Shown piece after piece: positions 13,967 through 30,147 of a stretch of DNA of 64,000 nucleotides; position 1 is the stretch's first letter, and each line of letters starts with the position of its first letter. The stretch lies in the NCBI RefSeq assembly GCF_023955655.1, contig NZ_JAMXHT010000002.1, positions 434,001-498,000 of the forward strand, read 5' to 3'. The position numbers were made by a program, and so were the translations under genes. The notes below the pieces were generated by a model. It did not search any database. It saw only the letters and a program-made list of their open reading frames with translations, and was not told the DNA's origin. This DNA is from Ralstonia soli. Its GTDB lineage: Bacteria; Pseudomonadota; Gammaproteobacteria; Burkholderiales; Burkholderiaceae.

Positions 13967-14340
13967 GTTGTCGTTTTGGTCTGATGTAGAGCTGCGTCGC
14001 GCTCGGACCGGTGCAATGCCGGTCGCCTCCTTTGCGTGCGACGCATAGACATACGGCAACCAGTTGCATATCTGAAGGGTGTTTCCGGACGGGGCACCGA
14101 TCGCCCGCGGTGAAGGTGCGCTGCGATCGCAATACGAGGCGAGGCGCCGACCGATTGTGTTCATGTCGCCCAGCGGCTTCTGAGATGGCTGCGGCCGTTG
14201 AGGTCCGCCTAATCTTTTTGCGAAGGTGGCCGTTAGTTAACCATATACGGCACAGGGTTTTATATATGAAACATCTGGGCCCATTCAGATGGATGCGCGG
14301 ACGCTCCGCGCGTCGTGACACGCACCTGGATTTTTCCGAC
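13967..14340. promoter_or_regulatory. Divergent promoter region between two chemoreceptor genes
   Basis: These 374 bases carry no convincing gene. The half nearest the plus-strand receptor (about 14205-14270) is AT-rich, with a TTATATAT stretch that could hold a -10 element. I could not identify a confident flagellar sigma-28 site by eye. Confidence 0.35.
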
Positions 14341-16033: not shown

Positions 16034-16060
16034 CGTTTCATAGGTAAAACAAGCGAAACG
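16034..16060. promoter_or_regulatory. Imperfect dyad upstream of the catabolic operon, probable IclR operator
   Basis: CGTTTCATAGGTAAAACA (from 16034) resembles the perfect palindrome found before the porin at 28943, matching 12 of its 18 positions. A further GCGAAACG at 16053-16060 restores an inverted half-site pair CGTTTC...GAAACG. It lies just before the first gene of the operon that contains an IclR regulator. The binding protein is inferred from context. Confidence 0.5.
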
Positions 16061-16077
16061 TGATGGAGTCGACAAAA

Positions 16078-16380
16078 ATGCAGCCGCAATTCAATCCCGA
16101 CCTCGCTCCGTGGGAGCCGATTTCTCCGAACAACGTCGCTGGCAAGGGTCGCATCGAGCGCCCGGGCCACGTCGCCAATCTGGTCTGGCAGACGCGCGCT
16201 GCCGAGCCGACCGCCTATGAGAACCAGCTCGGCGATTCGCTGGAAGCGGCGTTCCTGGGTGGCGCGCAGACGCCGGCCGACATCGTTGCCGTGCTGAACG
16301 AGCGCGGCCCGCGTAACGCCGCCGGCGACGCCTGGACGGAAGAGGCGTTCCTGGCCGAGATGCGCCGCCTGGGCGCCTGA
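16078..16380 (+). CDS. Small protein preceding a Rieske oxygenase (recombinase-like helix-turn-helix family)
   Basis: A 100-aa soluble protein starting MQPQFNPDLAPWEPISPNNVAGKGRIERPGHVANLVWQTR, with a C-terminal half (AAFLGGAQTPADIVAVLNERGPRNAAGDAWTEEAFLAEMRRLGA) like a small helix-turn-helix of the resolvase-type recognition region. I recall this family from genes placed next to Rieske oxygenase subunits, but its role is not known to me. The ATG at 16078 is favoured because GGAG lies 11 bases upstream. GTG 16060 and ATG 16063 are alternatives. Being first in the operon it could be a regulator or a small oxygenase accessory protein. Confidence 0.65.
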   Translation: MQPQFNPDLAPWEPISPNNVAGKGRIERPGHVANLVWQTRAAEPTAYENQLGDSLEAAFLGGAQTPADIVAVLNERGPRNAAGDAWTEEAFLAEMRRLGA

Positions 16381-16448
16381 TCACTACAGATTCGACGCCG
16401 TATTGCCCACTGAGGCGGCCGGCGCAACCCCATCAAGCGAGGCAAGCA

Positions 16449-17516
16449 ATGGAAGGCAACAAGGAAGCGCAGAAGGAAGCGCGCATCAACACCGGTCTGC
16501 GCAACTACTGGTATCCGGTGGCGGCGTCGTGGAACGTGAAGAACGCCCCGGTGGGCATCACGCGCCTGAGCCAGAACATCGTGCTGTGGCGCGATACCGC
16601 AGGCCAGGTGCATGCGCTGGAAGACCGCTGCCCGCACCGCGGCGCACGCCTGTCGATGGGCTGGAACCTGGGCGACCACGTGGCCTGCTGGTACCACGGC
16701 GTTGAAGTGAACGGCCAAGGCACGGTCACGAGCGTGCCGGCAGTCGACAGCTGCCCGATGGAAGGCAAGACCTGCGTGCGCAGCTACCCGGTGCAGGAAC
16801 GCGCCGGCGCCATCTTCCTGTGGTTTGGCGACAAGGCGCCGTCTGAGTACGACGATGCCGTCGGCACGCTGCGCCTGCCCGAAGAGCTGACCAGCGACGA
16901 GCACAGCCACTTCCTCTGCTACGCGCACTGGAACGTCAACTACCGCTATGCCATCGACAACGTCATGGACCCGATGCACGGCGCGTACCTGCACGCCGTG
17001 TCGCACTCGATGGCCAGCGGCGAGAAGAAGGCCGTGATGGAAGTGGTCGAGACCGACCACGGGATCATGTTCCAGAAGACCGGCCAGCGCGGCGTGAACT
17101 TCGATTGGACCGAGTTTGGCGAGACCGGCACGATGTGGCTGCGCCTGTCGATTCCGTATCAGCCGAAGGTTGGCCCCGGCGGCCCGTTCACCATCGTCGG
17201 CATCGCCACGCCGGTGGACGAACAGCATTGCATCGTCTACTTCTGGCGCACGCGCCACGTGCAAGGCTGGGAGCGCGACGTGTGGCGCTTCCTGTATCGC
17301 AACCGACTGGAAGGCCTGCACTGGGATGTGCTCGAGCAGGACCGCGTGGTGCTCGAATCGATGGCGCCCGAAGCGCGCGACCACGAAACGCTGTACCAGC
17401 ACGACATCGGCATCACGCGTATCCGCCGCATCCTGGCCCGCCGTGCTGCAGCCGAGCTGGCTGACGCGCCGGTCGCCATGCTCAAGCCCATTGCTTCGGA
17501 AGCCCAACATGCCTGA
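16449..17516 (+). CDS. Rieske non-haem iron oxygenase, large (terminal oxygenase) subunit
   Basis: A 355-aa terminal oxygenase of the VanA/phthalate-dioxygenase group. The Rieske [2Fe-2S] ligands are Cys61-His63 (CPHRGA) and Cys80-His83 (CWYHG). The mononuclear iron ligands are His177 and His182 in DPMHGAYLH, with Asp174 in the electron-bridge position. Such single-type-subunit oxygenases demethylate or hydroxylate aromatic acids, taking electrons from a VanB-type reductase. One is encoded at 27923 at the other end of the same cluster. The substrate is not readable from sequence. The gene overlaps the next by 8 bases, showing translational coupling. Confidence 0.92.
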   Translation: MEGNKEAQKEARINTGLRNYWYPVAASWNVKNAPVGITRLSQNIVLWRDTAGQVHALEDRCPHRGARLSMGWNLGDHVACWYHGVEVNGQGTVTSVPAVDSCPMEGKTCVRSYPVQERAGAIFLWFGDKAPSEYDDAVGTLRLPEELTSDEHSHFLCYAHWNVNYRYAIDNVMDPMHGAYLHAVSHSMASGEKKAVMEVVETDHGIMFQKTGQRGVNFDWTEFGETGTMWLRLSIPYQPKVGPGGPFTIVGIATPVDEQHCIVYFWRTRHVQGWERDVWRFLYRNRLEGLHWDVLEQDRVVLESMAPEARDHETLYQHDIGITRIRRILARRAAAELADAPVAMLKPIASEAQHA

Positions 17517-18282
17517 GCGCAATCCAGCCACCGGGCTGCTGGCCGGCCGCAAGGTGCTCGTCACGGGCGCCGCGCGCGGGCTGGGCCTGGCGTTTGCCAA
17601 GTCCATCGCCGAAGCGGGCGGCGCGGTTGCGCTGGCCGACATCCTGGGCGAGCGCGTGCAGGAAGAGGCTGCAGCGCTGCGTGCGGCTGGCTTCGAGGCC
17701 CATGGCTTCACGCTGGACCTCGGTGATCCTGCGTCCATCCAGGCTTGCGCTGCTGCGGCTGCGCAGGCTCTGGGCGGGTTGGATGGCCTGGTCAACAACG
17801 CGGCGATCACCAACTCCGGCGGGCGCGACGCATCGTCCATCGACGTCGACACGTGGGACCGCGTGATGAACGTCAACGTGCGCGGCACCTGGCTGATGAC
17901 GACGGCATGCCTGTCGGCGCTCAAGGCATCGGGCCGCGGCGCCATCGTGAACCTGTCGTCGGACACGCCGCTGTGGGGCGCGCCGAACCTGCTGGCCTAT
18001 GTGGCGAGCAAGAGCGCTGTCATCGGCATGACGAAGTCGCTGGCGCGTGAATGCGGCGCCGACGGCATTACCGTCAACGCCATCGCGCCGGGGCTGACGC
18101 TGGTGGAGGCCACCGAATACGTGCCGGCGCACCGGCATGCGCTGTACCGCGACCAGCGCGCGATCTCGCGCGACCAGGTGCCCGACGACGTATGCGGCGC
18201 CGTGCTGTTCGCACTGTCCGATCTTTCCCGATTCGTGACGGGCCAGACGCTGGCCGTCAACGGCGGTTTTGTCATGCAGTAA
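17509..18282 (+). CDS. Short-chain dehydrogenase/reductase (classical)
   Basis: A 257-aa NAD(P)-dependent oxidoreductase. It shows the nucleotide-binding TGAARGLG, the NNAA motif, the catalytic Ser in NLSSDTPLW and the YVASK pair (Tyr and Lys), then the C-terminal NGGFVMQ. The start ATG at 17509 overlaps the oxygenase stop. An acidic residue after the second strand (ALADI) suggests NAD rather than NADP. It probably oxidises a hydroxylated intermediate of the pathway, for example a diol or alcohol. Confidence 0.9.
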   Translation: MPERNPATGLLAGRKVLVTGAARGLGLAFAKSIAEAGGAVALADILGERVQEEAAALRAAGFEAHGFTLDLGDPASIQACAAAAAQALGGLDGLVNNAAITNSGGRDASSIDVDTWDRVMNVNVRGTWLMTTACLSALKASGRGAIVNLSSDTPLWGAPNLLAYVASKSAVIGMTKSLARECGADGITVNAIAPGLTLVEATEYVPAHRHALYRDQRAISRDQVPDDVCGAVLFALSDLSRFVTGQTLAVNGGFVMQ

Positions 18283-18314
18283 CGCAACCCATATCACTGA
18301 GAAGAGGTATTTCG

Positions 18315-18851
18315 ATGAGCGATCTCTCCGAACAACAGCAAGTGCAACGCACGTGGGACCGCCCCGAGGGCGCGTCGTTTGAAGACTGGATGAACAGCCG
18401 CGTGGCGCGTTTCTCCACCCGCCGTTACGACTGGGACGCCCTCAAGTTCCAGGCCGACTTCGACCCGAAGTACCGCCGTGCGCAAATGCGCTACGTGGGC
18501 ACGGGCGGCACGGGCGTCGCGGCAGACGCCAACACGGTGCCGTCGGAGCACTTCACGTTCTCGACCATGGTCATTCCGGCCGGTCACGAAGGCCCGTCGC
18601 ACCTGCACACCGATGTGGAAGAGGTGTTCTTCGTCATCCGCGGCAAGCTCAAGCTGGTGCTGGAGAAGGACGGCGAGCGCTTTGAGACCATCCTGACCGA
18701 CCGTGATCTCGTCTCGGTACCCCCCGGCGTGTACCGCGAAGAAATCAACATCGGCGACGAAGACGCGCTGATGTGCGTGATGCTGGGCTCCAAGAAGCCG
18801 ATCACGCCGACGTATCCGCCCGAGCACCCGCTCACCAAGATCAAGCGTTGA
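18315..18851 (+). CDS. Cupin-domain protein
   Basis: A 178-aa protein with a single cupin barrel in its second half. Motif 1 is HEGPSHLHTDVEEVFFVIRGKLKL, with His, His, Glu in the usual metal positions. Motif 2 is reduced (DLVSVPPGVYREEINIGDEDAL), with Arg or Tyr where the fourth His is normally found. The N-terminal 60 residues (TWDRPEGASFEDWMNSRVARF) are not cupin-like and contain many aromatic residues. It could be an iron-dependent isomerase or dioxygenase in the pathway, or a sensor. It lies 32 bases after the dehydrogenase and 4 before the hydrolase, inside the operon. Confidence 0.82.
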   Translation: MSDLSEQQQVQRTWDRPEGASFEDWMNSRVARFSTRRYDWDALKFQADFDPKYRRAQMRYVGTGGTGVAADANTVPSEHFTFSTMVIPAGHEGPSHLHTDVEEVFFVIRGKLKLVLEKDGERFETILTDRDLVSVPPGVYREEINIGDEDALMCVMLGSKKPITPTYPPEHPLTKIKR

Positions 18852-18855
18852 TGCC

Positions 18856-19758
18856 ATGAGCGCGCAGGCTGTCATGTCCTCCCACCCGTTCCGCGTAGCC
18901 GATGCACTTGCCGTGCTGGGCGCCGAGTTTGCCGAGCGCACTGTCGCGATCGACAACAAGGGCAATCAGATCGGCTACCGGCAATGGGGCGAGCGCGGTC
19001 CGGTGGTGGTGCTGTTGCACGGCATCAGCTCCAGCGCCGCGTCGTGGCTGCCTTGCGCGCAGATCCTTTCGCAAACCATGCGCGTGTTCGCATGGGATGC
19101 GCCGGGCTACGGCAATTCCACGCCGCTGGAACAGGCCGCGCCGCGCGCTGCCGACTATGCGCTGCGTCTGCGCGCATGGCTCGACGCGCTGCATGTGACG
19201 CCCGACGTGATCGTCGGACATTCGCTGGGCGCGCTGATGGCCTCGGCGTATGTGGCTGAAGCCCCGGCAACGATGCAGCCGACATGCCTGTTGCTCCTGA
19301 ACCCCGCGCAGGGCTACGGCCAGCCGGGCCAGGAAGACAAGTCCCGCGCGGTGCAGGCACAGCGTCTGGCAACGCTCGACCAGCTCGGTATCGACGGCAT
19401 GGCGGAATCGCGGCACGCACATCTGCTGCGCCCGAACGCCACCGCTGAAGAACGCGCCTGGGTGCGCTGGAACATGTTGCGCCTGAACGATGGCGGTTAC
19501 CGCCAGGCGGTGGCCATGCTCAGCGGCGACGACATCGGTGCCTACCTGCGCAAGCGTCCGGCATCGACGCCGGCCCGCGTGGCCTGTGGCGATGTCGACG
19601 GCATCACGCCGCCGCAAGGCTGTCAAGCGCTGGCCGAGACGTTCGGTCTGCCGTTTGCAAGCGTGCCGGCTGCCGGGCATGCGTCCTATATCGATGCGCC
19701 AGCCGCAGTTGCGGGCTGCATCGAACAAGCCGTTCTCCCCAATTCTCGAAACGCCTAG
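18856..19758 (+). CDS. Alpha/beta hydrolase, probable C-C or ester hydrolase of the pathway
   Basis: A 300-aa alpha/beta hydrolase with oxyanion turn LLHGISSSAASW, nucleophile elbow GHSLG (Ser123), an acid near DGITPP and the catalytic His in AGHASY. Serine hydrolases of this class in ring-cleavage pathways hydrolyse the vinylogous 1,5-diketones that extradiol dioxygenases make. An extradiol-type VOC protein is encoded at 26939 in the same cluster, so this role is plausible but not proven. It may equally be an ester or lactone hydrolase. The gene starts 4 bases after the cupin stop. Confidence 0.85.
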   Translation: MSAQAVMSSHPFRVADALAVLGAEFAERTVAIDNKGNQIGYRQWGERGPVVVLLHGISSSAASWLPCAQILSQTMRVFAWDAPGYGNSTPLEQAAPRAADYALRLRAWLDALHVTPDVIVGHSLGALMASAYVAEAPATMQPTCLLLLNPAQGYGQPGQEDKSRAVQAQRLATLDQLGIDGMAESRHAHLLRPNATAEERAWVRWNMLRLNDGGYRQAVAMLSGDDIGAYLRKRPASTPARVACGDVDGITPPQGCQALAETFGLPFASVPAAGHASYIDAPAAVAGCIEQAVLPNSRNA

Positions 19759-19770
19759 GCGCCAAGACCT

Positions 19771-20598
19771 ATGAGCAACGACCTCATCCCAGAAGACGTG
19801 CAGGAAAAGTACATCGTGCCCGGGCTCGAACGCGGCCTGCGCCTGCTGTGCGAGTTCAGCCACAAAGACCGCGTGCTCTCCGCACCGGAGTTGGCGCGCC
19901 GGCTGAAGGTGCCGCGCTCGACGGTATTCCGCCTGCTGACCACGCTCGAAGTGATGGGCTTCATTGAACGTGTCGATGGCGGTCGTGATTTCCGTCTCGG
20001 CATGGCCGTGCTGCGCCTGGGCTTTGAATACCTCGCCTCGCTGGAACTGACCGAGCTGGGCCGTCCGCTGCTCGATCGCCTGCGCGACGAAATCCATTAC
20101 CCCTGCAACCTCGTCGTGCGCGACGGCCGCTCGATCGTCTACGTGGCGAAGTCGGTGGCGCCCACGCCGTTCACGAGTTCGGTCAACGTCGGCACGCGCC
20201 TGCCCGCGCATGCCACGGTGCTCGGTCGCGTGCTGCTGGCCGATCTGTCGCTGGCCGAACTGCGCCAACTGTATCCGGAGCCGCAGCTGGAAGTGTTCTC
20301 GCACAACACGCCGCGTACGGTGGAAGCGCTGTTCGAGATGGTCCAGCGTGACCGCGAACACGGCTACGTGCTGCAAGAGGGCTTCTTCGAAGCCAACATC
20401 TCGACCATCGCTGCGCCGGTGCTGGATCGCGCAGGCAAGGTGGTCGCCGCGCTCGGCACGACGATCCCGTCGCCGCGCATCGAGCCCGGCCAGCTGGATG
20501 TGATGATCGACAAGGTGCGTGCTGCCGCAGGCGAGCTGTCATATCTGCTCGACTACCGCCCGGCCAGCAACAAGGTCGTCAACCTGTTCCGGGAATGA
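19771..20598 (+). CDS. IclR-family transcriptional regulator
   Basis: A 275-aa regulator with an N-terminal winged helix (LSAPELARRLKVPRSTVFRLLTTLEVMGFIERV) and an IclR effector domain (VGTRLPAHATVLGRVLLADLS, then EGFFEANISTIAAPVLDRAG). The position inside the catabolic operon makes it the probable controller of the cluster, binding a pathway intermediate. The palindrome GTTTCGTATACGAAAC at 28943 and its weaker copy at 16034 are candidate operators. It overlaps the next gene by the ATGA at 20595, so regulator and enzyme are co-translated. An unusually acidic N-terminus (SNDLIPEDVQEKYIV) precedes the DNA-binding part. Confidence 0.93.
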   Translation: MSNDLIPEDVQEKYIVPGLERGLRLLCEFSHKDRVLSAPELARRLKVPRSTVFRLLTTLEVMGFIERVDGGRDFRLGMAVLRLGFEYLASLELTELGRPLLDRLRDEIHYPCNLVVRDGRSIVYVAKSVAPTPFTSSVNVGTRLPAHATVLGRVLLADLSLAELRQLYPEPQLEVFSHNTPRTVEALFEMVQRDREHGYVLQEGFFEANISTIAAPVLDRAGKVVAALGTTIPSPRIEPGQLDVMIDKVRAAAGELSYLLDYRPASNKVVNLFRE

Positions 20599-21404
20599 CC
20601 ATGTCGATGATCAATCTGACCGGCAAGACGGCTGTGGTGACCGGAGGCTCCTCCGGCATCGGTCTGGCCACCGTTGAACTGCTGCTGGAAGCCGGCGCCG
20701 CCGTGGCGCTGTGCGGCCGCAATGCAGAACGGCTGGCAGCGGCCGAAGAGAAACTGCGCAGCCGATTCCCCGAGGCGAAGCTGTTTGCCGCCACCTGCGA
20801 CGTGCTCGACGCCGCGCAGATGACCGCGTTTGCCGATGCGGTGGAGCAGGCGCTCGGCCCCGTCGACATGCTGATCAACAACGCCGGTCAGGGCCGCGTC
20901 TCGAAGTTTGCCGATACCGACGATGCTGCCTGGACGCAGGAGCTGCATCTCAAGTTCTTCTCCGTGATCCACCCCACGCGTGCGTTCCTGCCGCAACTGG
21001 AGCGCTCGGAGCACGGTGCCATCGTCTGCGTGAACTCGCTGCTCGCACAGCAGCCGGAGCCGCACATGGTGGCCACCTCGGCCGCGCGTGCCGGCGTGCT
21101 CAACCTGGTGCGCTCGATGGCCACCGAGTTCGCGCCCAAGGGCGTGCGCGTCAACGGCATCCTGATTGGGCTGGTTGAATCGGGCCAGTGGCGCCGCCGC
21201 TTCGAGGCGCGCCCCGATGAAGACCGCCACCTCGACTGGGCCGCGTGGACGCGCCGCCTGGCCGTGCAGAAACACATTCCCCTTGGCCGTCTGGGCCTGC
21301 CGGAAGAGGCAGCCCGCGCCATTCTGTTCCTTGCCTCGCCGTTGTCTTCGTACACCACGGGCAGCCATATCGATATCTCCGGAGGACACTCCCGTCATGC
21401 GTAA
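20595..21404 (+). CDS. SDR-fold protein lacking the catalytic Tyr and Lys
   Basis: A 269-aa protein with an intact nucleotide-binding fold (TGGSSGIG, NNAG near residue 95) and catalytic-type Ser148 (CVNSLL). Where classical enzymes carry Tyr-x-x-x-Lys, it reads ATSAARAG, so Thr161 and Arg165 occupy those positions. I recall other SDR proteins with this TSAARAG pattern, so it is likely a real subfamily, not a sequencing error. It may use another acid-base pair, act on an unusual substrate, or bind NAD without canonical catalysis. Start codons 20595 (coupled), 20601 and 20607 are possible. It overlaps the next gene by 8 bases. Confidence 0.82.
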   Translation: MTMSMINLTGKTAVVTGGSSGIGLATVELLLEAGAAVALCGRNAERLAAAEEKLRSRFPEAKLFAATCDVLDAAQMTAFADAVEQALGPVDMLINNAGQGRVSKFADTDDAAWTQELHLKFFSVIHPTRAFLPQLERSEHGAIVCVNSLLAQQPEPHMVATSAARAGVLNLVRSMATEFAPKGVRVNGILIGLVESGQWRRRFEARPDEDRHLDWAAWTRRLAVQKHIPLGRLGLPEEAARAILFLASPLSSYTTGSHIDISGGHSRHA

Positions 21405-23112
21405 CGAACAACAACTGGTCACGGTGGGCTATGCGATTGCCGCCTTTCTGGAATCCTGCGAGGTCAAGGCCGCCTTTGGCGTGATCTCCATCCACAACAT
21501 GCCCATCCTCGATGCGATGGGCGAGCGCGGCAAGATCCGCTTCATCATGGCGCGCGGCGAAGCGGGCGGCACCAACATGGCCGACGCGTATGCGCGCACC
21601 ACGGGCAGCCTGGGCGTCTGCTTTACCAGCACGGGCACGGCAGCGGGCAACGCCGCTGGTGCGATGGTCGAAGCGCTGACCGCCGGCACGCCGATGCTGC
21701 ATATCACGGGCCAGATCGAAACGCCGTACCTGGACCAGAGCCTGGCGTACATCCATGAAGCGCCGGACCAGCTCACCATGCTCAAGGCCGTGTCGAAGGC
21801 GGCCTTCCGCATCCGCAGCGCCGACACCGCGATCAGCACGATGAAGCTGGCCGTGCAGACCGCGCTGACGGCCCCGACCGGCCCGGTGAGCGTGGAGATC
21901 CCGATCGACATCCAGGCCGCGCTGATTCCGATGCCGGAAGACCTGCGCCCGCTGCTGGTGCCGCAACATGTGCCGTCGGAACACGCGCTGGATGAACTGG
22001 CCGAGCGCCTGTCGCGCGCGCACCGTCCGATGCTGTGGCTGGGCGGCGGTGCCCGCCATGCCGCAAGCCAAGTCAAGCGCCTGATGGACCTGGGCTTTGG
22101 TGTGGTCACCAGCACGCAGGGTCGCGGCATCGTGCCGGAAGACGATCCGCGCTCGCTGGGCGCCTTCAACCTGCACAAGCCGGTCGAGGCGTTCTACCAG
22201 ACGTGCGACGCCATGCTCGTCGTCGGCTCGCGCCTGCGCGGCAACGAAACGCTGAAGTACGAACTGAAGCTGCCGCGTCCGCTGTACCGCATTGATGCAG
22301 ACGCCTCTGCTGAAGGCCGCTGCTATGCCAGCGACTACTTCGTCTGCGGCGATTCGGTCCTCGCACTGGATGGCCTGATCGCGCGGCTGGAAAACAAGAT
22401 GCAGATCGACGCCGCATTTGCGGGCGACCTGCGCGCCGCGCACGAAAAAGCGGTGGGCGGCCTGATCGACGGCCTGGGCCCGTACTCGAAGCTGGTGGAT
22501 GCACTGCAGGCCGCCGTTGGCCGCGAGTTCAACTGGGTCCGCGACGTGACCGTCTCGAACAGCACGTGGGGCAACCGCCAACTGCGCATTTTCGACTCGC
22601 GTGCCGGCGTGCACGCACTGGGCGGCGGTATCGGCCAGGGCCTCGCCATGGGCATCGGCGCGGCCATCGGCTCGGCCGCAACCGCATCGGGCAAGAAGAC
22701 CTTCTGCCTGGCCGGCGACGGCGGCTTCATCCTGAACCTGGGCGAGCTGGCGACGGCCGTGCAGGAGCGCGCCAACCTCGTCATCGTGCTGATGAACGAC
22801 AAGGGCTACGGCGTCATCAAGAACATCCAGGACGCGCAGTACGGCGGCCGCCGTCACTACGTTGATCTGCACACGCCGGACTACGCGGCGCTCTCGCAGT
22901 CGCTGCAGCTGCGTCATCGCCGTGTGTCCGATCTGGCGGACGTCGGCAAGGCGCTGGAAGAGGCCACCAGCGAGGACGGCCCGTTCCTGATGGAGATCGA
23001 CATGCTCGCCATTGGCAGCTTCAAGACCGCCTTCGCTGGCCCGCCGGTCAACCAGCAAGCACCGAATGGCCAAGGCGAGCGCGCAGCCGAGCGCACTACG
23101 GTGGTGGCGTGA
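21397..23112 (+). CDS. Thiamine-diphosphate-dependent enzyme (acetolactate synthase / decarboxylase-like)
   Basis: A 571-aa ThDP enzyme with three domains: N-terminal pyrimidine-binding (with the activating Glu in MARGEAGGTNMADAYAR), a central domain (residues about 190-330), and the C-terminal pyrophosphate-binding domain. The C-terminal domain carries the metal motif GDGGFILNLGELATAVQERA through VLMNDKGYG, ending in an unusually long tail with TFAGPPVNQQAP. It belongs to the superfamily of 2-oxo acid decarboxylases and lyases. Which 2-oxo acid it handles is unknown. The start at 21397 has the ribosome site CGGAGGA. It overlaps the SDR gene, which suggests the two act in sequence. Confidence 0.88.
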   Translation: MRNEQQLVTVGYAIAAFLESCEVKAAFGVISIHNMPILDAMGERGKIRFIMARGEAGGTNMADAYARTTGSLGVCFTSTGTAAGNAAGAMVEALTAGTPMLHITGQIETPYLDQSLAYIHEAPDQLTMLKAVSKAAFRIRSADTAISTMKLAVQTALTAPTGPVSVEIPIDIQAALIPMPEDLRPLLVPQHVPSEHALDELAERLSRAHRPMLWLGGGARHAASQVKRLMDLGFGVVTSTQGRGIVPEDDPRSLGAFNLHKPVEAFYQTCDAMLVVGSRLRGNETLKYELKLPRPLYRIDADASAEGRCYASDYFVCGDSVLALDGLIARLENKMQIDAAFAGDLRAAHEKAVGGLIDGLGPYSKLVDALQAAVGREFNWVRDVTVSNSTWGNRQLRIFDSRAGVHALGGGIGQGLAMGIGAAIGSAATASGKKTFCLAGDGGFILNLGELATAVQERANLVIVLMNDKGYGVIKNIQDAQYGGRRHYVDLHTPDYAALSQSLQLRHRRVSDLADVGKALEEATSEDGPFLMEIDMLAIGSFKTAFAGPPVNQQAPNGQGERAAERTTVVA

Positions 23113-23144
23113 GCCCACAACTGAGCCAATCCAAGGAGCCGGAC

Positions 23145-23948
23145 ATGCTGCATGTATCGATGGTCGGTTGCGGAGCGATCGGGCAGGGCGTGCTGGAGCT
23201 GCTCAAGAGCGATCCGGACGTCTGCTTCGACGCCGTGATCGTGCCTGAGCACGCGATGGACAAGGCGCGTGCGGCCATCGCCCCGTTCGCCCCCAACACG
23301 CGTGTGACGACGCGCCTGGCGGCGGATGCGCGTCCCGACCTGCTGGTCGAATGCGCGGGCCATGACGCGCTCGAAGAGCACGTGGTGCCGGCGCTTGAGC
23401 AGGGCATCGACTGCCTCGTGGTGTCGGTCGGTGCGCTGTCCGAACCGGGCGTGGCCGAGCGGCTGGAAGCGGCGGCACGGCGCGGCAATGCGCAGGTGCA
23501 GCTGCTGTCGGGCGCCATCGGCGCCATCGATGCGCTGGCCGCTGCGCGCGTGGGCGGGCTGGATGCGGTGGTCTACACCGGCCGCAAGCCTCCGCGGGCC
23601 TGGAAGGACACGCCGGCCGAGCAGCAGTTCGACCTCGATGCGCTGCGTGAACCGACCGTGATCTTTGAAGGCAATGCACGCGACGCCGCGCGCCTGTTCC
23701 CGAAGAACGCCAACGTGGCCGCCACGCTGTCGGTGGCGGGCCTGGGGCTGGAGCACACGCACGTCAAGCTGCTGGCCGATCCGACTGTCGACGAGAACAT
23801 CCACCACGTGGAGGCGCGTGGCGCCTTCGGTGGCTTCGAGCTGACCATGCGCGGCAAGCCGCTGGCGGCCAATCCCAAGACTTCCGCGCTGACGGTGTTC
23901 AGCGTGGTGCGTGCGCTGGGCAACCGCGCGCACGCCGTGTCGATTTGA
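23145..23948 (+). CDS. nadX: Aspartate dehydrogenase-like protein
   Basis: A 267-aa protein of the L-aspartate dehydrogenase fold, which interconverts L-aspartate and iminoaspartate with NAD(P). Recognisable parts are the Rossmann VGCGAIGQGVLELL, VECAGHDALEEHV, LLSGAIGAIDAL, FPKNANVAATLSVAGLG, a candidate catalytic His in ENIHHVEARG and the C-terminal PKTSALTVFSVVRAL. The start is ATG 23145 with AAGGAG 7 bases ahead. A GTG at 23109 would overlap the previous stop. Within a catabolic operon, it is more likely to reduce or oxidise a related amino- or imino-dicarboxylate than to serve NAD biosynthesis. This is an inference. Confidence 0.8.
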   Translation: MLHVSMVGCGAIGQGVLELLKSDPDVCFDAVIVPEHAMDKARAAIAPFAPNTRVTTRLAADARPDLLVECAGHDALEEHVVPALEQGIDCLVVSVGALSEPGVAERLEAAARRGNAQVQLLSGAIGAIDALAAARVGGLDAVVYTGRKPPRAWKDTPAEQQFDLDALREPTVIFEGNARDAARLFPKNANVAATLSVAGLGLEHTHVKLLADPTVDENIHHVEARGAFGGFELTMRGKPLAANPKTSALTVFSVVRALGNRAHAVSI

Positions 23949-23964
23949 ACAAGGCTTTCGCGCC

Positions 23965-25461
23965 ATGACTGTTTCCACCATGAACGCAACCGCAACCTCC
24001 CTGCTTCCGATCTGCATCGCGGGCGAATGGCGCCTCGGCACCGGCGAGCGCTATGTCACGCGCTATCCGGCCACGGGCGAGGTCGTCGCAGAACTCAACG
24101 CCGCCAGCGTGGCCGATGTGGAAGAGGCCGTGGCCGGTGCTTACCGCGCCTTCCTGTCCAGCGGCTGGGCCCAGCGCAAGCCGCACGAGCGTGCCGCCGT
24201 GCTGTACCGCGTGGCCGAGCTGATCCGCTCGCGCAGCGAAGCCCTGGCCCAGCGCCAGCGCCTGGACAACGGCAAGCCCATCAACGAAACGCGCGCCCTG
24301 GTGGCGAGCGCCGCTGCCACATTCCAGTTTTTCGGCGCCGCCTGCGAGACGCTGGAAGAATCGCTCACGCCCGCGCGCGGCGATTGCCTGACGATGAGCG
24401 TGCATGAGCCCATGGGCGTGGTGGCCGCCATCACGCCGTGGAACTCCCCCATCGCAAGCGAGGCGCAGAAGATGGCGCCCGCACTGGCCGCCGGCAACGC
24501 CGTCGTCGTCAAGCCGGCGGAAGTCACGCCGCTCATGGCGCTGGAACTGGCTGCCATTTGCGAAGAGGCCGGCATCCCCAAAGGCATGATCAGCGTGCTG
24601 CCGGGCAAGGGCTCGATCATCGGCGATGCCATCACCAAGCATCCGCTGGTGCGCCGCGTGTCGTTCACGGGCGGCACGAACACGGGCAAGCACATCGCCC
24701 ACATTGCGGCCGACAAGATGATGCCGGTGTCGCTGGAGCTGGGCGGCAAGTCGCCGACCATGGTGTTTGAAGATGCCGACCTGGACCACGCGGTGAACGG
24801 TGTGCTGTACGGCATTTTCAGCTCGTCGGGCGAGTCGTGCATTGCGGGTTCGCGCCTGTTCGTGGCGCGCTCGCTGTACGAGCCGTTCATGGACCGCCTG
24901 GCTGCCGGTGCCGCACGCCTGCGCGTCGGCAACCCGGCTGATGCGGCCACGCAGATGGGTCCGCTGATCACCGATCGCCACCGCGAGACCATCGAGTCGT
25001 ACGTGGCGATGGGTGTGGAAGAGGGCGGCCACCTGCGCACGGGCGGCCTGCGCCCCCACATCGCCGGTTGCGAATCGGGCTACTTCTACACGCCGACCAT
25101 CATCGAAGGCCTGACCAACAGCGCGCGCATCTGCCAGGAAGAGATCTTCGGCCCGGTGCTCGTCGCCATGCCGTTCGACGATGAGGATGAACTGATCGAG
25201 CAAGCCAACGACAGCGTCTACGCACTGGCCGCCGGCATCTGGACGCGCGACTACAAGCGCGCCTGGCGCATTGGCCGCGCCGTGCAGGCCGGCAATGTGT
25301 GGATCAACACGTACAAGCAGTTCTCGATCTCGACGCCGTTTGGCGGTTGGCGCGACAGCGGCCTGGGCCGCGAGAAGGGTCGCCTGGGCATCCTGCAATA
25401 CATGGAACAGAAGAGCCTCTACTGGGGCCTGAACGAACAACCGCTGGCCTGGGCGAACTGA
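23965..25461 (+). CDS. Aldehyde dehydrogenase (NAD(P)-dependent)
   Basis: A 498-aa aldehyde dehydrogenase. It shows TPWNSPIASEAQKMAPALAAGNAVVVKPAE (cofactor site), the active-site Glu in VSLELGGKSP, the catalytic Cys in SSGESCIAGSR, and the late EEIFGPVL and FGGWRDSGLGREKG blocks. Start ATG 23965 follows the previous stop by 16 bases. It would oxidise an aldehyde made in the pathway, such as the product of the ThDP enzyme, to an acid. The exact substrate is unresolved. Residues around the Cys (GESCIAG rather than GQVCCAG) differ from the betaine and succinate-semialdehyde types. Confidence 0.92.
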   Translation: MTVSTMNATATSLLPICIAGEWRLGTGERYVTRYPATGEVVAELNAASVADVEEAVAGAYRAFLSSGWAQRKPHERAAVLYRVAELIRSRSEALAQRQRLDNGKPINETRALVASAAATFQFFGAACETLEESLTPARGDCLTMSVHEPMGVVAAITPWNSPIASEAQKMAPALAAGNAVVVKPAEVTPLMALELAAICEEAGIPKGMISVLPGKGSIIGDAITKHPLVRRVSFTGGTNTGKHIAHIAADKMMPVSLELGGKSPTMVFEDADLDHAVNGVLYGIFSSSGESCIAGSRLFVARSLYEPFMDRLAAGAARLRVGNPADAATQMGPLITDRHRETIESYVAMGVEEGGHLRTGGLRPHIAGCESGYFYTPTIIEGLTNSARICQEEIFGPVLVAMPFDDEDELIEQANDSVYALAAGIWTRDYKRAWRIGRAVQAGNVWINTYKQFSISTPFGGWRDSGLGREKGRLGILQYMEQKSLYWGLNEQPLAWAN

Positions 25462-25489
25462 AGCCGGCGCAGTGTGGAGGAGACAAAAC

Positions 25490-25564
25490 ATGAACACCAT
25501 TTTGGGAAAAGGCTTCGTCATGAATCCGACGCAAGCACCGGTCACGCAAGGGAGCGCGCAATGA
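25490..25564 (+). CDS. Possible 24-residue leader peptide translationally coupled to the transporter
   Basis: A short open frame of 24 codons starting MNTILGKGFV and ending QGSAQ, too short for routine gene calling. It has the best ribosome site in the area (GGAGGAGA, 9 bases ahead). Its TGA (25562-25564) overlaps the MFS start codon (25561-25563) in an ATGA junction. The transporter gene has a weaker site of its own (AAGGGAGC). Coupled leaders like this can tune translation of a membrane protein. It may also be incidental, so confidence is modest. Confidence 0.4.
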   Translation: MNTILGKGFVMNPTQAPVTQGSAQ

Positions 25565-26826
25565 AATCGAACCCGCAACGCTGGCTGGGTGTCGTCGTAC
25601 TGTTTCTGGTTGTCGCCATCTCGTATATCGACCGCATCAACATTGCGGTGCTGATCACGCAACACGATTTTCTGCAGCATGTGGGCCTCGCCGCCAACGA
25701 CCGCAGCAGCCAGGGGCTGCTGGCCACGGCGTTCATGGTCGGCTATGGCTTTTCCGCCATCGTGTTCACCCCGTTCTGTGCCGCGCTCTTTGGTGTGCGT
25801 CGCAGCCTGATCTATGGCCTGGCGCTGTGGGGCGGCATCACCATGATCTCGCCCTGGTTCAACGGCTACGGCGAGTTGCTGCTGTCGCGCTTCATCCTGG
25901 GCTTTGCCGAGGGGCCGCTGTTCTCGCTGGGCGCGTCGTATATCAAGGCGCATTTCGACAGCCGGGAAAGCGGCAAGCCAAACGCCATCTTCAACATGGG
26001 CACGGGTGTCGGCCTGGCCGTGGGTTATCCGCTGGTCGGGTACGCCATTGCCAGCGTCGATTGGGAGGCGTCATTCCACCTGCTGGGTCTGCTCAATCTG
26101 CTGTTGGGTATTCCGCTGGTGCTGGCGTTCGTGCGCATGCCGGAACGTTATGCGGCCATGCCGAAGCCCGAGTCTGTGCCGGCAGCGTTGACGACCGTGC
26201 GGGAGATGTTCCGCGGCGCTTTCCATACGCGCCATATCTTCACCATGACGGTGCTGACGGCGGCCTTCCTGTCGTACCTGTGGGGCAGCAGCAACTGGTT
26301 GCCGACATACCTCAAGGAAGCGCGTGGATTTTCGCTGCGCGAGATGGGCTGGATGGCTTCGATGCCGCAGTACGCAACCGTGCTGGGGGTGGTGCTGGGC
26401 GGTCTGCTGCTGGATATCCTCCCGCGCCGCCGCATTCCGCTGATTTTCGTACTGGGTAGCGTGGGCGTGGCCGTGGCGGTGTTGCTGGCCATCAACAGCA
26501 CCGATCGCTACGCCGCCGCTTACTGGCTGACGGCCGCCAGCCTGTGCTGGGGCCTGCAGAGCCCGGCGATTCCGAGCACCGTTCAATACAACGCGGCACC
26601 CGAGCATGTGGCTTGCGCGTTTGGCGTGACCAACGGGGTGGGTAGCCTGGTGGCGGGTTTCATGCCGGCCATCATGGGGGTCGTCATCGCGATGGGAACG
26701 GGCGGCGGTCTGGCCGCTGGCTTCGGCAGCCTGGTGGGTACGCAGTTGGTCGTGCTGTTGTGCGGCCTGGCCCTGTTGCGCAACGGCGCAACCGCAGGGC
26801 AAGCCGTTCCCGGCGGGGCGCATTGA
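25561..26826 (+). CDS. MFS transporter, anion:cation symporter-like
   Basis: A 421-aa, 12-helix major facilitator. The N-terminal VAISYIDRINIAVL matches the YxDRxN motif of the anion:cation symporter (ACS) subfamily, which takes up organic and aromatic acids. GFAEGPLFSLGASYIKAHF covers the helix 4-5 region and VRMPERY the central loop. The frame is open upstream, but ATG 25561 is the first that gives a sensible cytoplasmic start. The location in the operon makes it the likely importer of the pathway substrate, probably a carboxylate. Confidence 0.9.
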   Translation: MKSNPQRWLGVVVLFLVVAISYIDRINIAVLITQHDFLQHVGLAANDRSSQGLLATAFMVGYGFSAIVFTPFCAALFGVRRSLIYGLALWGGITMISPWFNGYGELLLSRFILGFAEGPLFSLGASYIKAHFDSRESGKPNAIFNMGTGVGLAVGYPLVGYAIASVDWEASFHLLGLLNLLLGIPLVLAFVRMPERYAAMPKPESVPAALTTVREMFRGAFHTRHIFTMTVLTAAFLSYLWGSSNWLPTYLKEARGFSLREMGWMASMPQYATVLGVVLGGLLLDILPRRRIPLIFVLGSVGVAVAVLLAINSTDRYAAAYWLTAASLCWGLQSPAIPSTVQYNAAPEHVACAFGVTNGVGSLVAGFMPAIMGVVIAMGTGGGLAAGFGSLVGTQLVVLLCGLALLRNGATAGQAVPGGAH

Positions 26827-26938
26827 TCGCCGCGGGCAGATTTGCAGGCGCGAATCTCAAGCAGCGCGCGTAGCCCCTCAATGAATCACAGTCGCCGCTG
26901 GCCACCCGAGGCCGGTCGGCGCAAAGCAGGAGATGAAG

Positions 26939-27901
26939 ATGAATACCATTCGGGGCATCGACGAGATCGTCTATGGTGCCGACGACCTTGCCGCCTGCAA
27001 GCAGTTCTTCCTGGATTGGGGCCTTGCGCTGCAATCGGAAGATGCAGACGGCCTGCTGTTCGAAACGCTCAACGGCTGCCGCGTGCGCGTCAAGCACAGC
27101 GACGACGCCACGCTGCCGCCCGCCATGGAAGCCGGCCCGACACTGCGTGAGGTGATCTGGGGCGCAGATTCCCAAGCCGTGCTCGACCGCCTGGCCGACA
27201 CGCTGGCTGACCAGCCCGGCTACGTCAATGCCGACGGCCGCGTGGGCTGCATCGACCCGAACGGCCTGGCCGTGCGCGTGCAGCTGACCGCCAAGCGCGA
27301 CGTCGACGTGCAGTGCGCCGCCATGAACACCTGGACCGACAAGCCGCGCCGCAATCAGCCCAGCCCGATCTACGAACGCGCCACGCCCATCGAAGTGGGC
27401 CACGTGGTGTTCTTCGTGAAGGACGTGGTGGCTACGGAGCGCTTCTATACCGAGAAGCTCGGCTTCGTGCCGTCTGACCACTATCCGGGGCGCGGCGCCT
27501 TCCTGCGCTGCGAACCCGAAGGCGGCCATCACGACCTGTTCCTGCTGCAAACCCCGCAGCCCAAGAGCGGGCTCAACCACGTGGCCTTTACGGTGCGCGA
27601 TATCCACGAAGTGTTCGGCGGCGGCATGCATGTGTCGCGCTGCGGCTGGGATACGCAACTGGGCCCGGGCCGTCACCCGATCTCGTCGGCGTATTTCTGG
27701 TACTTCAAGAACCCCGCCGGCGGGCTGATCGAGTACTACGCCGACGAAGACCAGCTCGACGCCGACTGGCAGCCGCGCGATTTCGAACCCGGCCCGACCG
27801 TGTTTGCCGAATGGGCCATCGATGGCGGCATCGACGGCAACACGCGCCGGCAGAAGAACGTCAGTGGGCCGGAAGGCAAGTTCCTGACGGAAAAGCGCTG
27901 A
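26939..27901 (+). CDS. Two-domain VOC protein, extradiol-dioxygenase type
   Basis: A 320-aa protein with two vicinal-oxygen-chelate domains. The N-terminal one (MNTIRGIDEIVYGADDLAACKQFF) is probably structural. The C-terminal one carries metal ligands in the family positions: His in EVGHVVFFVKDV, His in GLNHVAFTVRD and Glu in GGLIEYYADEDQ. This arrangement is that of type I extradiol dioxygenases, which cleave catechol-like rings with Fe(II). Glyoxalase-like isomerases share the fold, so ring cleavage is likely but not certain. The start ATG at 26939 is chosen because AGGAG abuts ATG 26933 with no spacer and sits 6 bases before 26939. Confidence 0.82.
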   Translation: MNTIRGIDEIVYGADDLAACKQFFLDWGLALQSEDADGLLFETLNGCRVRVKHSDDATLPPAMEAGPTLREVIWGADSQAVLDRLADTLADQPGYVNADGRVGCIDPNGLAVRVQLTAKRDVDVQCAAMNTWTDKPRRNQPSPIYERATPIEVGHVVFFVKDVVATERFYTEKLGFVPSDHYPGRGAFLRCEPEGGHHDLFLLQTPQPKSGLNHVAFTVRDIHEVFGGGMHVSRCGWDTQLGPGRHPISSAYFWYFKNPAGGLIEYYADEDQLDADWQPRDFEPGPTVFAEWAIDGGIDGNTRRQKNVSGPEGKFLTEKR

Positions 27902-27922
27902 ACCGAAGCTGAGAGACGTGCC

Positions 27923-28879
27923 ATGAGTACCAATCCCTTCCTCACCCTGCGCGTGCATGCGATGCGCTACGAAGCCCAGGGCATCGTGAGCGTGGAGCTG
28001 CGCGATGTCGACGGCAAGACGCTGCCGGAATACGCTCCGGGCGCGCACATCGAGCTGCACCTCGGCAATGGCCTGGTGCGCAGTTACTCGCTGTGTGGCG
28101 CGCCAGAGGTGCGAGATCGCTACGTGGTCGGCGTGCTGAACGATCGCAACAGCCGTGGCGGCTCGCGCTACGTGCACGAGCAACTGCGCGTGGGTTCGAC
28201 GCTCAAGATCGGCGGCCCGCGCAACCACTTTGCGCTGGATGAAAGCGCGCCGCGCACGGTGCTGGTGGCCGGCGGTATCGGCGTGACGCCCATCGTCTGC
28301 ATGGCGCGTCGTCTGGCGGAGCAGGGCAAGACGTTCTCGATGCTGTACTGCGCGCGCTCGCGTGCCGAGGCCGCCTTTGCCGATGAACTGGCTGCGCATG
28401 GCGATGCGGTGCGCTTTCACTTTGATGCCGATGCCGGCGGCCCGCCCGATCTGCAGGCGCTGCTTGCGGGGCATCCGGCCGACACGCACTTCTATTGCTG
28501 CGGCCCCGGCCCGATGCTGCGCGCCTTCGAGGCCGCATGCGAGGCGCTCGGCTACACCAACGTCCATATCGAACGTTTTGCGGCCGACCCTGGCGTGGAG
28601 TCGGTGCAGGACGGCGAATACCAGGTCAAGCTCGCACGCACTGGCTCGGAGCTGTGCGTGCCGCCAGGCAAATCGCTGCTGGATGCGCTGCTCGAGATTG
28701 GCGTGGAAGTCGAGCACAGCTGCAAGGAAGGCGTGTGCGGCTCGTGCGAAACCCGCGTGCTGGAAGGCGAACCGGACCACCGCGACAGCGTGCTGTCCAA
28801 GAGCGAGCGCGAGTCGAACCAGACGATGATGGTTTGCGTCTCGGGCTGCAAGGGCAAGCGCCTGGTGATTGACCTTTAA
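27923..28879 (+). CDS. VanB-type oxygenase reductase (FMN/NAD + plant-type [2Fe-2S])
   Basis: A 318-aa electron-transfer reductase of the phthalate-dioxygenase reductase/VanB type. The flavin part (RSYSLCGAPE, residues about 50-60) is followed by the NAD site (LVAGGIGVTPIVCMA, then FYCCGPGPML). A C-terminal ferredoxin domain has the ligand cysteines SCKEGVCGSC and a fourth Cys in MMVCVSG. It passes electrons from NADH to the Rieske oxygenase encoded at 16449. Both ends of the cluster carrying the two halves of one enzyme indicates a single regulated pathway. A terminator follows at 28885. Confidence 0.93.
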   Translation: MSTNPFLTLRVHAMRYEAQGIVSVELRDVDGKTLPEYAPGAHIELHLGNGLVRSYSLCGAPEVRDRYVVGVLNDRNSRGGSRYVHEQLRVGSTLKIGGPRNHFALDESAPRTVLVAGGIGVTPIVCMARRLAEQGKTFSMLYCARSRAEAAFADELAAHGDAVRFHFDADAGGPPDLQALLAGHPADTHFYCCGPGPMLRAFEAACEALGYTNVHIERFAADPGVESVQDGEYQVKLARTGSELCVPPGKSLLDALLEIGVEVEHSCKEGVCGSCETRVLEGEPDHRDSVLSKSERESNQTMMVCVSGCKGKRLVIDL

Positions 28880-28942: not shown

Positions 28943-28960
28943 CGTTTCGTATACGAAACG
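28943..28960. promoter_or_regulatory. Perfect 18-bp palindrome, probable IclR operator of the porin
   Basis: CGTTTCGTATACGAAACG is a perfect inverted repeat in the 158-base space between the terminator and the porin. It is AT-rich at its centre and overlaps a TATACG that could serve as -10. A degenerate copy lies before the operon at 16034. The same IclR protein (19771) could therefore control both transcripts. Confidence 0.7.
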
Positions 28961-29037: not shown

Positions 29038-30147
29038 ATGAAGACAACCCTGTTCGCCGTTGCGGCGATGACTTTGGCGACGGCGTCCACCATGGCTGCC
29101 GCGCAGAGCAACGTGACGCTGTACGGCAGCATCGATGAAGGCGTGGCCTACATCAACAGCCTCAAGAGCGGCGCAAACAGCGGCTCCGCCCTGCGCATGG
29201 ACCCGGGCACGATGCAGCCGGACCGCTTCGGCCTGCGTGGTTCGGAAGACCTGGGCGGCGGCACGCAAGCCATCTTTCAGCTGGAATCGGGCTTCCTGGG
29301 CGACACCGGCAACAGCGTGGTGTCGGGCAAGCTGTTCAACCGCGCCGCGTGGGTCGGCCTGACGAACGATCGTCTGGGCAACATCCAGCTCGGCCACCAG
29401 GCGGACTTCATGTTCGATTACCTCGGCCGCCTGAGCAACGGCTTCCAGCTCACCAACTTCTACCTGTTCCACCCGGGCAACTTCGACAACCTGGCCAACC
29501 AGTTCCAGATCGACAACGCTGTGCGCTACGTCTCGCCGGTCTTCGGCGGGCTGCAACTGGGCGGTATGTACGGTTTTGGCGAGGTGCCGGGTTCGCCGTC
29601 CAAGAGCCGCAGCTACAGCCTGGGCGCGTACTACACCAACGGCGGTTTCCGCGCGGCTGCGGCGTACACGGCATCGAATGACCGTGCGCTCGACATCGCC
29701 GGCCGTCTGGGCATCACCAACACGCTGGGCACGACGCTGGTGCCGGGCGTGATGACGCCGATGAGCTCGGTCAAGTCGTTCGGCGCTGGCACGCTGTACC
29801 AATTCAGCGGCCTGCCGGTGCAGATCAATGCCGTCTATACGCAGACGCGCATCACGCTGGGCGGCGCCAATGCCCGCGCGCAGAACGTCGACCTGGGTAC
29901 GGCATGGCACTACAGCGCGGCCAACACGCTCAACGTGGGCTATGGCTTCAGCAAGTACGAAGGCGCGCGCTGGAACATGCTCAACGTGGGCAACGTGTAC
30001 GCGTTCTCCAAGCGCACGCAGGTGTATCTGCAGGGAACGTATCAGCGCGCATCGGGCGATGCGCCGTCGGCGGCCATCAACGGTGTGGGCGTGTCGGCCA
30101 ACCGTAGCCAGATCGTTGTCAGCACCGGGGTGCACCACTCGTTCTGA
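29038..30147 (+). CDS. General porin (Burkholderia-type OmpC-like)
   Basis: A 369-aa outer-membrane porin. It has a signal peptide (MKTTLFAVAAMTLATASTMAAA), first barrel strand SNVTLYGSIDEGVAYINS, the family motif GSEDLGGGTQAIFQLESGF, AWVGLTNDRLGNIQLGHQ, and the final GVHHSF with the terminal Phe. It belongs to the Burkholderiaceae porin family of trimeric diffusion channels, many of which are associated with aromatic-acid catabolic clusters. It is controlled from a separate promoter carrying the palindrome at 28943. A bidirectional terminator follows. Confidence 0.93.
   Translation: MKTTLFAVAAMTLATASTMAAAQSNVTLYGSIDEGVAYINSLKSGANSGSALRMDPGTMQPDRFGLRGSEDLGGGTQAIFQLESGFLGDTGNSVVSGKLFNRAAWVGLTNDRLGNIQLGHQADFMFDYLGRLSNGFQLTNFYLFHPGNFDNLANQFQIDNAVRYVSPVFGGLQLGGMYGFGEVPGSPSKSRSYSLGAYYTNGGFRAAAAYTASNDRALDIAGRLGITNTLGTTLVPGVMTPMSSVKSFGAGTLYQFSGLPVQINAVYTQTRITLGGANARAQNVDLGTAWHYSAANTLNVGYGFSKYEGARWNMLNVGNVYAFSKRTQVYLQGTYQRASGDAPSAAINGVGVSANRSQIVVSTGVHHSF

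Follow-up and report, generated by a model that had tools for sequence, protein, structure and literature searches.

Kynurenate (4-hydroxyquinoline-2-carboxylate), a neuroactive and immune-active compound, is the compound in which one of the main branches of tryptophan breakdown ends, in animals and plants as well as in microbes. Degradation of kynurenate by bacteria was described with cell extracts around 1961–63: 7,8-dihydroxykynurenate was reported to be formed, extradiol cleavage yields 5-(3-carboxy-3-oxopropenyl)-4,6-dihydroxypicolinate, and the side chain is decarboxylated to a formylethyl group and oxidized to the carboxyethyl compound. The enzymes required are an oxygenase and its reductase, a dehydrogenase for the dihydrodiol, an extradiol dioxygenase, an aldehyde dehydrogenase (ALDH) and, for the 2-oxo acid and the double bond of the side chain, a decarboxylase and a C=C reductase. 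Enzymes of the pathway are classified as EC 1.14.99.2, 1.3.1.18 and 1.13.11.10 and, to our knowledge, have EC numbers and no sequences. Here, a stretch of 64,000 nucleotides of Ralstonia soli (the window; assembly GCF_023955655.1, contig NZ_JAMXHT010000002.1, positions 434,001–498,000) was analysed, which contains an operon of 13 co-directional genes with a porin gene after it (16.06–30.15 kb). The operon is near-certainly catabolic, with an N-heteroaromatic acid as substrate, and from its sequences we propose, with a probability of roughly 0.7, that it encodes the aerobic degradation of kynurenate.

The closest described system is the aerobic kynurenate ('quinoline') degradation of Pseudomonas and Delftia. 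The operon offers a candidate gene for its oxygenase, dihydrodiol dehydrogenase, extradiol dioxygenase, decarboxylation and aldehyde oxidation, and for its N-bearing four-carbon end product; it differs in the lower route proposed here, through a cupin, a hydrolase and an aspartate dehydrogenase (AspDH). The VanAB/DdmC O-demethylases also have a single-alpha Rieske protein with a VanA_C domain (PF19112, E 4e-14) and a VanB-type reductase, but the similarity is weak (DdmC, E 6e-22) and in the window a full ring-cleavage and decarboxylation set surrounds the Rieske gene. No VanA model of NCBIfam matched the Rieske protein at E 1e-5 (one match, to another oxygenase, is far under its cut-off), and no beta subunit of the AntABC/BenABC type was present among the operon genes scanned. 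Operons for ring cleavage of trigonelline, nicotinate and 3-hydroxyanthranilate likewise handle heteroaromatic or amino-aromatic acids through ring opening and imine or amide hydrolysis, and we know of none that combines a Rieske oxygenase, a VOC protein, a thiamine diphosphate (ThDP) decarboxylase, a cupin and an AspDH.

AspDHs of the NadX type belong to the same family as the enzyme of the operon and share its C-terminal domain, but the latter is not placed with NAD-biosynthesis genes. The AspDHs of Delftia sp. Cs1-4, Klebsiella pneumoniae and Ralstonia eutropha JMP134 were characterised for aspartate production; the Delftia and Klebsiella enzymes are 65% and 42% identical to that of R. eutropha, and their amination is five to ten times faster than deamination (PMC5554190). 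The accessible part of that report gives them no place in an aromatic pathway. The AspDH of the window, which lies inside a catabolic operon, belongs to this group. Its orthologues in the clusters of Delftia (locus L083) and locus L008 show 65% and 42% identity to it, and from these matching values we infer that the characterised Delftia and Klebsiella enzymes are encoded by cluster genes.

Organization of the operon and proposed pathway

The operon is confirmed as real: its thirteen genes lie on the + strand between 16063 and 28879, neighbours are at most 106 bases apart, and the porin gene begins 158 bases beyond. The order is HTH_62, Rieske oxygenase, SDR1, cupin, alpha/beta hydrolase, IclR, SDR2, ThDP enzyme, AspDH, ALDH, MFS transporter, VOC protein and VanB-type reductase. 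A sequence-only reading of this DNA had named the enzymes, all of which are present on the + strand with family matches that support each; its symporter is an MFS permease, its first reading frame encodes the HTH_62 protein, and the IclR gene inside and the porin gene after the operon were added to its list. It was right to see one catabolic operon joining ring hydroxylation, ring cleavage, ThDP chemistry and imine chemistry, and it also guessed well in supposing an aromatic acid from which a 2-oxo acid or an amino-dicarboxylate is set free.

Every substrate and step given below is proposed, on the strength of the genes observed, their conservation, their catalytic residues and an association, seen between genomes, of the Rieske gene with genes that lead from tryptophan to kynurenate. 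In step 1, the Rieske oxygenase alpha subunit (16449–17516; PF00355, PF19112), served by the VanB-type reductase (27923–28879; PaaE-type reductase model TIGR02160, E 3e-30, under its cut-off), would act as a kynurenate 7,8-dioxygenase and form the 7,8-dihydrodiol; its cluster ligands C61/H63/C80/H83 and iron ligands H177/H182/D298 are conserved in 84/84 alignment rows. SDR1 (17509–18282; PF13561, E 1e-54), a canonical short-chain dehydrogenase (SDR) with an intact Y166xxxK170 motif (both residues in 83/83 rows), would then re-aromatise the dihydrodiol to 7,8-dihydroxykynurenate (step 2). Residue numbers are counted from the stretches used in the alignments, starting at 17503 for SDR1, 18312 for the cupin and 21406 for the ThDP enzyme. 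In step 3, the two-domain VOC protein (26933–27901; PF00903; HpaD model, E 1e-17, under its cut-off), whose H157, H216 and E267 are conserved in 84/84 rows, would be the 7,8-dihydroxykynurenate 8,8a-extradiol dioxygenase, cleaving between C8 and C8a to 5-(3-carboxy-3-oxopropenyl)-4,6-dihydroxypicolinate.

The ThDP enzyme (21397–23112; NF005470, 931.7 bits against a cut-off of 495; E52 in 90/90 rows) would decarboxylate the 2-oxo acid of this 3-carboxy-3-oxopropenyl side chain, and SDR2 (20595–21404; NF005468, above cut-off) would reduce the side-chain double bond (step 4). The formylethyl side chain would next be oxidized by the ALDH (23965–25461; TIGR01804, E 5.8e-149, under its cut-off), which keeps C292 and E258 in 86/86 rows, to give 5-(2-carboxyethyl)-4,6-dihydroxypicolinate (step 5). 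The match to the 7,8-dihydroxylation pathway is at the level of families: oxygenase and NADH reductase, dihydrodiol dehydrogenase, extradiol dioxygenase, 2-oxo-acid decarboxylase and ALDH are all present. In SDR2, T161xxxR165 replaces the classical YxxxK motif (R165 in 88/88 and T161 in 87/88 rows). Without the carbonyl-handling tyrosine, the protein would be better suited to reducing a C=C bond than to acting as an alcohol dehydrogenase; together with steps 6 and 7, this role is the least certain of the scheme. SDR2 represents a conserved SDR family that is devoid of the catalytic YxxxK motif.

For the lower route, it is proposed that the cupin (18315–18851; PF07883) opens the pyridine ring of the dihydroxypicolinate with O2 between C4 and C5 (step 6). 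Its H97, H99, E103 and E104, found in 83/83 rows, are likely metal ligands, and its best solved relatives are ring-cleaving quercetinases (E 4e-6). The alpha/beta hydrolase (18856–19758; PF12697/PF00561; model pLDDT 93.8), with S123/D248/H275 kept in 84/84 rows, would split the N1–C6 amide of the opened ring into 2-oxoglutarate and aminofumarate/iminosuccinate (step 7), and AspDH (23145–23948; NF009827, above cut-off; PF01958, E 2e-33) would reduce the imine of the latter to L-aspartate (step 8). An AspDH would belong in an aromatic operon because the N1–C2(COOH)–C3–C4 portion of kynurenate is an iminosuccinate unit. According to the accessible part of a 2024 review, glutamate, alanine and organic acids are what pseudomonads make of kynurenate; the review cites a 1961 paper titled on glutamic acid synthesis from kynurenate (PMC11354673); glutamate as a reported product would fit 2-oxoglutarate as the product of step 7. 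Uptake of the substrate would depend on the MFS transporter (25561–26826; TIGR00893, E 6e-38, under its cut-off) and the porin (29038–30147; NF040479, E 2e-14, under its cut-off), and regulation on the IclR-family protein, which is PcaR/PcaU/PobR-like (19771–20598; TIGR02431, E 4e-51, under its cut-off).

The sequence-only reading had been unable to match the operon to a known pathway; all ten of its enzymes fit a step of the kynurenate pathway, several by deduction. No genes for such a pathway were found in the searches made of an open-access library. Within that limit, neither the set of genes nor its lower half nor its broad distribution seems to have been described, the biochemistry being of a known kind. 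There is about an even chance that the cluster comprises all genes of the aerobic kynurenate pathway together with a new lower route of cupin, hydrolase and AspDH.

Three other types of route were also compared. Vanillate, phthalate and aminobenzoate routes, any of which the sequence-only reading had seen as an outcome that would overturn it, are not supported by the sequence search, in which identity to the Rieske protein drops from 48% to 31% among the best 40 of 607 plasmid records. A sulfonate- or phosphonate-type route, for which the AspDH-like protein, ThDP enzyme and ALDH could be taken, leaves nothing for the Rieske protein, the VOC protein and the cupin to do. The pathway of indole-acetate degradation (iac) was set aside on its gene content.

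Link to the genes of kynurenate formation

If kynurenate is the substrate, genomes that make it from tryptophan should carry the cluster, and the Rieske gene was used as its marker. Among 141 sampled genomes of the family of Pigmentiphaga, 56 have a tryptophan 2,3-dioxygenase (TDO) and 17 a Rieske orthologue; all 57 TDO loci of the 56 genomes were fetched, mostly with 4 kb on each side. An aromatic aminotransferase gene lies at most 150 bases from that of TDO in seven genomes (G206, G597, G636, G574, G544, G592 and G536). Three arrangements occur: either of the two genes may come first, and G574, G636 and G544 have the order arylformamidase–TDO–aminotransferase. The Rieske orthologue is present in 7/7 of these genomes vs 1/49 of the other TDO-positive ones (G577), with p values of 3e-8 (Fisher) and 1e-7 (hypergeometric), neither corrected for phylogeny. 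Kynureninase gave no match in 4/7 of the linked genomes and in 1/49 of the others; the four linked genomes therefore have no recognised anthranilate exit for the tryptophan ring. Delftia acidovorans (formerly Pseudomonas acidovorans; L083/G200) has a TDO gene adjoining that of an aromatic aminotransferase, a Rieske orthologue, and a second TDO gene with arylformamidase and kynureninase. G341, a genome from the order sample that resembles Delftia, combines an aminotransferase–TDO pair with a Rieske orthologue.

The TDO–aminotransferase genomes come from few lineages, and with p values not corrected for phylogeny the link might be a coincidence of descent in a few genera, the true substrate being an unrelated nitrogen compound such as an indole- or pyridine-type plant product. 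That three arrangements and several lineages, Delftia included, agree speaks against such a coincidence, and loss of kynureninase fits an alternative fate of kynurenine; we consider this explanation highly improbable, the least probable of those weighed here.

Several points weigh against kynurenate as the substrate. The link is one of genomes, with no adjacency to the cluster. In the genome of the window itself, TDO stands beside kynureninase on contig 23, and of two aminotransferase matches the one listed sits on contig 26; among the matches listed, the TDO–aminotransferase link was not seen there. All seven linked genomes carry, by identity, the second of the two oxygenase types described below (type B), five of them also type A, to which the enzyme of the window belongs. 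In the order sample, the Rieske orthologue occurs in 0/16 TDO-positive genomes without a kynureninase match; 12 of these 16 have a divergent kynureninase-like gene (23–29% identity) within about 4 kb of TDO and four have none in the stretch, and no aminotransferase lies near TDO in any of the 16 in the regions fetched. Nine of the 17 Rieske-positive genomes of the Pigmentiphaga family sample have no TDO match, and TDO occurs in 8/16 cluster-bearing genomes or plasmid records; the half of the carriers that lack it would therefore live on kynurenate from outside. The cupin has an arginine in place of the histidine of motif 2, and its structure model is poor (pLDDT 67.5). Finally, the pathway chemistry and the organism physiology used here are general background knowledge.

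A second kynureninase gene lies in the genome of the window about 50 kb upstream of the Rieske gene (L201; G000:C12:396001-408000). It sits with genes for a 4-hydroxy-2-oxovalerate aldolase, a 2-oxo-3-hexenedioate decarboxylase-like protein and a Rid protein, in the manner of the 3-hydroxyanthranilate meta route.

Distribution and conservation of the cluster

The sequence-only reading had called the operon an orphan, which proved wrong. Rieske orthologues (E <= 1e-60) were found in 96/200 sampled genomes of the family of the window and in 12/300 genomes of the order sample; among the genomes listed, 15/16 of the same genus have one, the genome of the window included (84 misses fall outside the listing). 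In the plasmid collection, at least 26 records reach an identity of 48% or higher to the Rieske protein. A scan with the ThDP alignment kept 80/528 relatives, which with nine plasmid-record loci gave 89 fetched loci. The nine core enzymes (Rieske, SDR1, cupin, hydrolase, SDR2, ThDP, AspDH, ALDH and VOC) are all present as distinct matches in 78/89 of these loci, and the grouping is therefore far beyond chance. Of the 11 incomplete loci, six are cut by contig ends (L013, L041, L054, L059, L076 and L087), two (L004 and L005) have annotated VOC genes that are too distant for the threshold, and L006 holds no orthologous cluster. The set occurs in Klebsiella, Acinetobacter, Pseudomonas, Cupriavidus, Herbaspirillum, Variovorax, Delftia and Alphaproteobacteria.

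Modules, oxygenase types and optional genes

Some loci divide the set. In Delftia L083 and Paracidovorax L089, the genes of cupin, hydrolase, IclR and AspDH are grouped about 2.2 kb from the upper enzymes on the same strand, and the second group comprises SDR1, a second IclR, SDR2, ThDP, ALDH, VOC, HTH_62, Rieske and VanB. Pigmentiphaga L056 has a run of IclR and SDR2 to VanB; within its fetched 21.6 kb, SDR1, cupin, hydrolase and AspDH are all missing. Caballeronia sp. NK8 carries the full cluster (L001) and a short one (L002; ferredoxin, HTH_62, Rieske, ThDP and VOC) beside a molybdenum (Mo) hydroxylase, and the 25.6 kb fetched of Vibrio L005 contain no Rieske and no SDR1 gene. These arrangements suggest three functional units, in which Rieske is paired with SDR1, Rieske is joined to VOC and ThDP, and cupin goes with hydrolase and AspDH.

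This grouping bears on the idea that the Rieske, VOC, ThDP and ALDH enzymes degrade a carbocyclic aromatic acid while AspDH merely balances ammonia or redox. NCBIfam does place IclR nearest to beta-ketoadipate regulators and the VOC protein nearest to HpaD, but in L083 and L089 AspDH is grouped with cupin and hydrolase, as expected of an enzyme of the pathway. The 78 complete loci contain AspDH by definition, and of the other uncut loci few lack it. A carbocyclic substrate would also leave the TDO–aminotransferase association unexplained, and we regard it as improbable.

Two types of oxygenase accompany the cluster: type A occurs with a ferredoxin and a FAD reductase (Klebsiella, Acinetobacter, Caballeronia) and type B with a VanB-type reductase. 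In trees of 29–31 rows, the Rieske protein of the window falls within type A (a 12-row set, 99/98); the ThDP, AspDH and VOC proteins of the window, in contrast, group with type-B clusters. The Ralstonia/Cupriavidus operon thus looks like a mosaic, a type-B pathway with a type-A oxygenase put in front, which suggests that both types are able to feed one pathway. At least six genomes of the Pigmentiphaga family sample carry type A and type B, and the two may therefore differ in substrate range.

Optional genes accompany many clusters. A FAD monooxygenase matches at 58–67% identity in 32 loci besides the query and lies between VOC and Rieske in 27/31 of its loci among L001–L089; its best solved relative is 6-hydroxynicotinate 3-monooxygenase, and it could admit xanthurenate. 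RidA is encoded between Rieske and VanB in 33/72 loci that have both, a presence that would be in keeping with the formation of an enamine or imine. Mo hydroxylases lie near the cluster in Caballeronia L002 and Cupriavidus L022, L027, L028 and L050, where formation of kynurenate from quinaldate would be a role for them; the best solved relative of the Mo subunit is 4-hydroxybenzoyl-CoA reductase. None of the three (FAD monooxygenase, RidA, Mo hydroxylase) has a match in the window.

Such genes would suit a close relative of kynurenate as the substrate (xanthurenate, quinaldate or another quinoline-2-carboxylate), degraded by the same enzymes via a dihydroxyquinoline-2-carboxylate. The flavin monooxygenase, which is found also in Vibrio L005 in the absence of Rieske and SDR1 (there with a match in two frames), could provide the entry of a pre-hydroxylated substrate; the Mo hydroxylases would convert quinaldate to kynurenate, and the genomes with two oxygenase types point the same way. 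On the other side, the TDO–aminotransferase link points to kynurenate itself, the window has neither flavin monooxygenase nor Mo hydroxylase, and quinoline 2-oxidoreductase is only the fourth solved relative of the Mo subunit. A relative of kynurenate is rather unlikely, although the least unlikely of the alternatives, and kynurenate is preferred.

On the Vibrio nigripulchritudo plasmid (L005:17235-18319), the flavin monooxygenase match is split over two frames, which may mean that the gene is disrupted. Near the cluster on a Caballeronia plasmid (L126:2806-5385) is a gene with the annotation 2-oxoglutarate dehydrogenase E1, which could suit a pathway that yields 2-oxoglutarate.

Control elements and neighbouring genes

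An operator-like inverted repeat, CGTTTC-N15-GAAACG (16034–16060), marks the operon start and is a candidate IclR operator; an operator-like palindrome, CGTTTCGTATACGAAACG (28943–28960), lies upstream of the porin gene. The pattern CGTTTC-N-GAAACG (spacer of 4–18 bases) occurs at only these two sites, before the first gene and before the porin gene, in the whole 64 kb, and the porin is tied to the operon because both share an operator-like site. A five-base-arm repeat, GTTTC-N-GAAAC, is kept upstream of HTH_62 in the close relatives L010, L011, L012 and L015, and the porin-side repeat in L010, L012 and L015 but not in L011; the repeat upstream of HTH_62 is absent from 13/13 Cupriavidus-type loci examined. 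No sigma-70-like promoter was seen at the operon, and terminator-like sites are at chance level.

The first gene (16063–16380, +) encodes a small protein with a recombinase-like helix-turn-helix (HTH_62; PF20552, E 5.5e-27), the sole match of this family in the genome of the window. It lies beside the Rieske gene in many related loci, without being detected in all; the protein might be a subunit of the oxygenase, a chaperone or a regulator. In the many loci where it adjoins the Rieske gene, no gene for a recombinase was noticed.

Directly upstream of the operon are two chemoreceptor genes (14341–15879 and 12428–14164) with TarH- and Cache-type ligand domains, and chemoreceptors lie near related clusters too (L002, L126). 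Downstream is a type VI secretion gene set (37822–62042; ClpB-like ATPase, VgrG, IcmF, TssF, TssG and VasJ), inside which G+C is lower at 46–54 kb.

Implications

If the proposal is true, one operon gives candidate genes for every step of a route that has been known since the 1960s, and the presence of AspDH inside an aromatic operon would be explained. The sequenced and unplaced AspDHs of Klebsiella, Acinetobacter, Delftia and Cupriavidus would thereby receive a metabolic job. The trait would become readable from genomes, being carried by about half of the sampled members of the family of the window, with copies in Klebsiella and Acinetobacter records, and soil, plant and clinical bacteria would be unsuspected consumers of a neuroactive and immune-active metabolite of tryptophan.

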